Shown piece by piece: positions 15,076 to 62,779 of a DNA stretch of 64,000 bases (the first letter of the stretch is position 1; each line of letters begins with the position of its first letter). Source of the stretch: Iocasia fonsfrigidae (GTDB lineage: Bacteria > Bacillota > Halanaerobiia > Halanaerobiales > DTU029); NCBI RefSeq assembly GCF_017751145.1, contig NZ_CP046640.1, positions 372,001 through 436,000 of the forward strand. The letters run 5' to 3'. The notes beneath the pieces were generated by a model. That model worked only from the letters and a program-made list of their open reading frames with translations, was not told the DNA's origin and did no database searches. Position numbers and translations under genes: made by a program.

Positions 15076-15258
15076 GGACTTTTTGACATATACTTACTCA
15101 CTAAAAAAAGCTAATTCCCATCTCCGCCTTAAGCCAATTAGTGCAAAATAAACTCACTTCACTACGTTTCGTTCAAACAGTATTTTGCAAAACACTTGTT
15201 GTCTTAAGTGCGGGGATGGAGCTTTTTAAACGTTCCTTCGTATATGACAAAAAAGTCC
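15076..15258. repeat. Intergenic structured repeat, family A, copy 1
   Basis: 183-bp element with nested imperfect inverted repeats. The outer arms GGACTTTTTGACATATAC (15076-15093) and GTATATGACAAAAAAGTCC (15240-15258) pair. The next arms are AAAAAGCTAATTCCCATC with CTTAAGTGCGGGGATGGA further in, and an inner pair GCAAAATA/TATTTTGC flanks the apex. The apex (15148-15190, starting AAATAAACTCACTTCACTAC) is nearly identical in copy 2 at 29595-29777. No coding potential is seen. It lies between the LPS operon and the GT4 gene. Confidence 0.85.
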
Positions 15259-29594: not shown

Positions 29595-29777
29595 GCCTGT
29601 TTTGTAATATGCTTATTCACTAAAAAAGTTAATTCTCCATCTCCTACTTAAGGCAATTAGCAACAAAATAAACTCACTTCACTACGTTTTGTTCAAACAG
29701 TATTTTGTAAACCGCTAATTGTCTTAAGTGCGGGGATGGAACTTTTTTAAGTTCATTCACATATTACAAAAACAGGC
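29595..29777. repeat. Intergenic structured repeat, family A, copy 2
   Basis: 183 bp, the same length as copy 1 at 15076-15258. Outer arms GCCTGTTTTGTAATATG (29595-29611) and CATATTACAAAAACAGGC (29760-29777) pair with each other although their sequence differs from copy 1. The apex AAAATAAACTCACTTCACTA and the TTAAGTGCGGGGATGGA arm are conserved. It fills most of the 334-nt gap between the M18 gene and thioredoxin; no gene is visible in that gap. Confidence 0.85.
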
Positions 29778-32625: not shown

Positions 32626-32822
32626 GTGGATAACTTTAAAGACCGACCAATATATTTACTTACCTTGTCGTGCACTATGGCGTCCTGCCTTCGTTTACTG
32701 TCGAGAAATTGTCTTCCGGTGTCCTACCTCCAGCCAATTTCTAGAGTCGTCCAGTAAATATATTGGTCTGGTTTATTATGATGAGTAGTTAACTTTGAGT
32801 GAAAAGTGGTTCTAAGTAAAAA
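32626..32822. repeat. Intergenic structured repeat, family B, copy 1
   Basis: About 195 bp, matched by copy 2 at 62587-62779. Starts GTGGATAACTTTAAAGACCG; contains perfect 16-bp arms GACCAATATATTTACT (32645-32660) and AGTAAATATATTGGTC (32753-32768), a GCGTCCTGC block, inner arms GAGAAATTG/CAATTTCT, then TCTAGAGTCGTCC; ends near GTTAACTT and AAGTAAAA. Noncoding. It fills most of the 397-nt gap before the DUF1934 gene; apart from this element and the terminator at 32574 I see nothing else in that gap. Confidence 0.85.
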
Positions 32823-51918: not shown

Positions 51919-52308
51919 TAATCATCCTCCTGCAGTAATATTATTTTGAGTTTAATACCTCTTATTACGCTTTATTACGCTGTTTTTCTATTATTTCCGT
52001 TAATAAAGACAACTATAACAAGTTTAACACAAATCTGTGATATTATCTAGTAAATAACTTATTACTATTATAGTTAAAATTTCTGCTTAGCCATTTGCTA
52101 AATGAACGTTAAAAAAGCTCCAGCCTGCATAGAAGGCTATGAATTTGGTTGGGTAACATAAAGTGCAAAATGTGACAGGCGAACCGTCCCTATGTCCGGT
52201 ATTTTTTATTTCTTGCATGAGTTTTTTTCCTGTGATATAATATTGCTAGCTGTGTTAAAATGATTGGATATGTTTTCGGATAACTGTTTTGAGAAAGAGG
52301 TGAAATAA
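51919..52308. other. 390-nt intergenic region with REP-like half-site
   Basis: Between divergent genes. It holds a REP-like half at 52169-52198 (GTGACAGGCGAACCGTCCCT then ATGTCC), matching one arm style of the palindrome at 50531, and the rpmE promoter at 52213. A duplicated TTATTACGCT occurs at 51962-51980. I see no gene or structured RNA otherwise. Confidence 0.5.
52213..52241 (+). promoter_or_regulatory. Extended -10 promoter for rpmE
   Basis: TTGCAT (52213-52218), 17-nt spacer, TATAAT (52236-52241) preceded by TGA. Confidence 0.75.
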
Positions 52309-62586: not shown

Positions 62587-62779
62587 GTGGATAACTTTTA
62601 AGACCGACAAATATATTTACTTCCCTTGTCGCATGCTACAGCGTCCTGCTTCGCTTGCTGTCAAGAAATTTTCCTTCGGCGTCCTGCCTACGGATAATTT
62701 CTAGAGTCGTCCAGTAAATATATTTGTCTGGTTAATGATAACTAGTTAACTTCGTACAAAAAGTGTTTTTGAGTAAAAG
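62587..62779. repeat. Intergenic structured repeat, family B, copy 2, inside the atp operon
   Basis: About 193 bp, matching copy 1 at 32626-32822. Perfect 16-bp arms GACAAATATATTTACT (62606-62621) and AGTAAATATATTTGTC (62713-62728); relative to copy 1 one C-G pair has changed to A-T in both arms. It shares GCGTCCTGC, TAATTTCTAGAGTCGTCC and GTTAACTT with copy 1. It occupies most of the 330-nt gap between the c2 and b genes; no gene is seen there. Confidence 0.85.

Follow-up and report, generated by a model that had tools for sequence, protein, structure and literature searches.

Two intergenic hairpins in Iocasia fonsfrigidae and their relatives are, judged by their sequences, an undescribed family of MITEs of this bacterial order, of which these two copies are decayed members; the mobility of the family is well supported. 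Both hairpins lie in the window, the whole stretch of 64,000 nucleotides that was analysed (contig NZ_CP046640.1, positions 372,001 to 436,000). They are probably old copies of a non-autonomous transposon, whose arms stayed paired mainly by template switching. The active form would have measured about 250 bp, with terminal inverted repeats CTCAAACTTCGCAG and a long imperfect palindrome with a mostly unpaired apex, and would have been inserted in trans by a putative transposase whose target duplications are AT-rich and 7 bp long. During replication, template switching would copy one arm onto the other, so that 'compensatory' changes arise in the DNA. Copies would survive best directly behind genes, oriented with a good intrinsic-terminator stem and an immediate U-run, and those resident today probably terminate transcription of the gene before them, or attenuate it.

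The initial annotation had described two copies of exactly 183 bp each, and both are present, at window positions 15076..15258 (copy 1) and 29595..29777 (copy 2), each on the + strand. Their folding energies are -58.0 kcal/mol (z -6.86) and -70.3 kcal/mol (z -10.44), respectively, with means of about -30 for shuffled sequences, and 0 of 200 shuffles folded as well as copies 1 and 2. The apex is nearly identical in both, as had been noted, and overall identity is 80%. The apical loop of copy 1, AAACTCACTTCACTACGTTTCGTTCAAACAG, was found by pattern match at 15150..15180 (+ strand; genome 387150-387180), and that of copy 2, with one mismatch, at 29670..29700 (+ strand; genome 401670-401700). The copies are intergenic, and no open reading frame of at least 80 amino acids spans copy 1 or copy 2. 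A search of the host genome (3.93 Mb, one contig) adds one more full copy, copy 3, which lies beyond the window and behind lpxD (genome 460066-460276, + strand) and brings the full copies in the genome to three, all inside 73 kb. A truncated half copy at window 52063..52162 (- strand; nhmmer 61.8 bits, E 1.6e-18), which the covariance model also matches, retains only the 3' arm plus a portion of the outer arm. A lack of further copies, or copies with unpaired arms, would have spoken against the earlier reading; what was found is a third full copy, a half copy and paired arms. The outer arms read GGACT/AGTCC, GCCTG/CAGGC and, in the third copy, GCCTA/TAGGC, and their differences are mostly compensated. 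The family also shows insertions and deletions: the 5' arm of copy 3 contains 23 additional bases, some of which (AGGTTGCCA) recur in the sister-genus copy L080. Where the half copy breaks off, window 52174-52190 reads GACAGGCGAACCGTCCC, which we take to resemble REP-like sequences of Firmicutes.

The evidence for mobility comes from related genomes. A check of the kind proposed at the outset used a covariance model, here made with 14 copies; it was searched across 17 genera of the order and gave matches in five (G000, G001, G003, G010, and G027), with about 40 matches in one genome, where the family carries inverted ends and target duplications. In G003, which belongs to the same family and another genus, the apical-loop pattern finds four further copies and a DNA search finds 70 pieces of the element. 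The 18 bounded elements in that genome have the terminal inverted repeats CTCAAACTTCGCAG/CTGCGAAGTTTGAG, and 11 of them are flanked by exact 7-bp target duplications (one more by 6 bp and another by 8 bp), where the chance expectation for 7-bp duplications from flank composition is 0.04. In G010, the ends were read by eye as CTCAACTTTCGG, with a TTAAATAA repeat on either side. All full copies of the host, and its half copy too, are homologous to the G003 MITE profile, the window copies aligning over the whole hairpin with 55-68 bits (62.7 bits for copy 1 and 68.4 bits for copy 2). Copy 1 corresponds to the inner part of the MITE, its outer ends not being recognisable, and neither window copy has recognisable terminal repeats or duplications at its flanks. 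Because profile homology stops at GCCTG/CAGGC, the ends of the window copies are either lost or too decayed to see, and these copies are therefore filed as decayed members by homology. The duplications that the initial annotation had suggested looking for thus exist in the G003 relatives and are lacking at the flanks of copies 1 and 2.

The locus of copy 3 provides an empty-site comparison. In nine relatives that keep lpxD and the following gene adjacent, the lpxD stop codon lies 25-147 nt from a fixed reference residue in that following gene, versus 357 nt in the host. The longer spacing indicates that copy 3 was inserted into the lpxD operon and that the insertion measures roughly 210-330 nt, which suits a complete element (about 250-275 bp) better than it suits the 207-nt hairpin alone. 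The idea of a mobile DNA hairpin, one of two alternatives offered from the sequence, is thereby supported, by relatives with inverted ends and 7-bp duplications as well as by the missing copy at the lpxD locus of nine relatives. At those TIR loci of G003 that were examined, no autonomous, transposase-sized element lies between paired ends, and a search limited to the DDE_Tnp_1 family found one gene there (C2:33036-33733), far from the listed ends. Two further forms occur in G003. Several MITE copies (L013, L081-L083) bear a nested insertion of about 90-100 bp, itself partly palindromic, in their 5' arm, and L117 (G003:C12:5130-5172) is a 43-bp element, barely more than two ends, that retains a 7-bp duplication (TTATTAA).

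Most copies follow a gene and share its orientation. A gene flanks the element on each side in 34 copies, and in 27 of these the gene upstream is co-directional with the element (binomial P 8e-4, copies treated as independent); between co-directional genes, sense copies number 21 and antisense copies 6 (P 0.006, again with copies treated as independent). Copies 1, 2, and 3 are all sense and begin, by profile ends, 22-33 nt past a stop codon. Within copy 1, a terminator-like module (15103..15227, + strand) is laid out as an A-run, a bulge on the 5' side, a stem and then GGATGGAGCTTTTT, the 3' side being free of a bulge; 13 contiguous paired bases stand directly before the T-run (15223-15227) in sense, versus 3 in antisense. 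The corresponding module of copy 2 (29622..29748, + strand) has 11 such pairs before its T-run (29743-29748) in sense and 2 in antisense. Across 14 copies, a run of at least five contiguous paired bases directly precedes the T-run in 11 in sense, while the antisense maximum is 3, because the large bulge sits on the 5' side. The element thus resembles intrinsic (Rho-independent) terminators in its A-run, its GC-containing stem and the immediate T-run in sense, but it differs from their usual form, with a loop of 3-8 bases, in that its stem is capped by a further long hairpin and is carried on a mobile element. A standard terminator scan, restricted to loops of 3-8 bases and consequently blind to a long-capped stem, reported none. 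From this anatomy, the element would have the build of a one-directional intrinsic terminator and a terminator role is plausible; an undescribed MITE family may in this way scatter one-directional terminators.

Pairing despite changed sequence had led the initial annotation to suggest selection on the fold. The pairing itself is as described: 24 of 44 predicted pairs have changed on both sides among 14 family members and still pair. The pairing count covers 40 pairs in 14 related, MAFFT-aligned sequences, and of its 558 cells 498 are Watson-Crick, 12 G-U and 16 A-C, the last two counts being small; 20 of the 40 pairs occur in at least two Watson-Crick types. Selection on an RNA would favour G-U over A-C, and since no such preference is seen, selection on an RNA fold is unsupported. 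Many pair changes are whole-pair transversions without intermediates, and the antisense RNA folds better than the sense RNA in 12 of 14 copies. An insertion of four bases in one arm sets L012 apart from its near twin L011; it is carried by L012 alone and completes the pairing with that copy's own opposite arm, as template switching would leave it. Template switching in hairpins has been argued to be a source of compensatory changes (PMC8794818), and between the arms of these elements it would explain such changes without selection. With G-U pairs not favoured and antisense folding as good as sense, we prefer correction at the DNA level to RNA selection and infer, from small numbers and related sequences, that it is probably DNA copying errors that keep the two arms complementary. 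Strong hairpin 'covariation' can thus have its source in mobile palindromes whose arms are corrected at the DNA level, instead of in RNA selection, and the counts of G-U versus A-C together with sense versus antisense folding are a simple test that can be used in covariation searches.

A structured cis-acting RNA, namely a 3' UTR element that spread by transposition and was later retained for its fold, would account for the strong covariation, for the sense orientation of most copies behind genes and for the asymmetric terminator-like stem. We nevertheless consider it unlikely, as G-U pairs are not preferred over A-C pairs, the antisense strand folds equally well or better, many copies are truncated or interrupted, and the element is missing from orthologous loci of relatives; Rfam, at both gathering and permissive thresholds, gives no credible match. 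Chance or simple local inverted duplication without any mobility agrees with the confinement of the full host copies to three within 73 kb, but is scarcely credible for a family that is found in five genera and has ends and duplications in its sister-genus copies. Spread through a single-stranded DNA hairpin would require an HUH or other hairpin-reading enzyme that recognises the apical loop as a site conserved across phyla. The loop, AACTCACTTC...CGTTCAAACA, is indeed kept in several genera of the order and recurs on palindromes elsewhere (see below), yet most G003 copies bear a different apex with the same ends and duplications, so that mobility does not depend on the loop in that genome, and we set it aside as a requirement. 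IS200/IS605-type single-strand transposition leaves no target duplications, and duplications of 7 bp suggest a DDE-type mechanism instead, making a hairpin-reading enzyme distinctly improbable. Decayed MITE copies with arms corrected at the DNA level are the reading that we retain.

Bacterial MITEs such as RUP, Correia/NEMIS, ERIC, and bcr1 offer the closest comparison. Like them, the element is short, non-coding, palindromic, intergenic, and present in many copies, and in the sister genus it has inverted ends and target duplications; in contrast, the window copies have lost their ends, and the apex loop is common to unrelated palindromes. The initial annotation could not match the hairpin to a named family and none was found here either; we know of no named MITE family with 7-bp AT-rich duplications and CTCAAACTTCGCAG ends. 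REP, BIME, and REPIN sequences, which are mobilised by RAYT proteins, are likewise palindromic, extragenic, and multi-copy. However, judged by size and layout, the element of about 250 bp with its 7-bp duplications is unlike their 20-40 bp units, and no GTAG/CGTC tag arrangement was seen.

The loop AACTCACTTC...CGTTCAAACA also tops long palindromes with unrelated stems in two further phyla. It stands at the apex of a palindrome at 47 loci in Roseateles/Pelomonas/Paucibacter-type Burkholderiales, at one locus in a MAG from a small phylum (46 genomes of that phylum in the collection) and at one locus in a different order of the phylum to which the window belongs. By our own estimate with equal base frequencies, the pattern, which has 21 fixed bases, would occur about 0.1 times by chance in the collection. 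The Roseateles/Pelomonas/Paucibacter palindromes share with the element the 29-30 nt apical loop, long self-pairing arms and genomic repetition, but differ in their unrelated stem, an extra 5' companion hairpin and a high GC content. A 20-30 nt DNA loop recognised by some widespread protein or process may cap palindromes with unrelated stems in three phyla, the stems needing only to pair and being kept so by arm-to-arm copying, in which case the loop and the pairing, and not the stem sequence, would define an ancient class of mobile palindromes; this idea is tentative, and we regard it as rather unlikely. The pattern was unmatched in viral contigs, and a plasmid search with copy 1 and one Burkholderiales element gave no match. 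Weak loop-only matches in plasmids and phages looked like chance and were discarded, three of the phage ones lying off the apex of comparable long palindromes. A literature search by the loop sequences found no description; a paper on triplex repeats (PMC4666352) concerns another motif.

Several of these loci have features of their own. The same-loop long palindromes of the Burkholderiales (L014-L061, L154-L158) come with a 5' companion hairpin (CCTACTTTTTG...CAAAAAGTAGG), and some of them form inverted pairs 250-1000 bp apart. In the small-phylum MAG (G041, L028/L160) the same two-module layout, a ACTTTCTTTTTG hairpin and a long loop-bearing hairpin, is repeated at least five times, and the locus in the other order (G073, L194) is a single long palindrome with a short loop, AACTCACTTCGTTCAAACA. 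Finally, the window contains a second pair of intergenic palindromic repeats, at 32626-32786 and 62587-62746, which are 82-86% identical and have the arms GACCGACCAATATATTTACT / AGTAAATATATTGGTC; one arm change in this pair (C to A) is compensated in the other copy.
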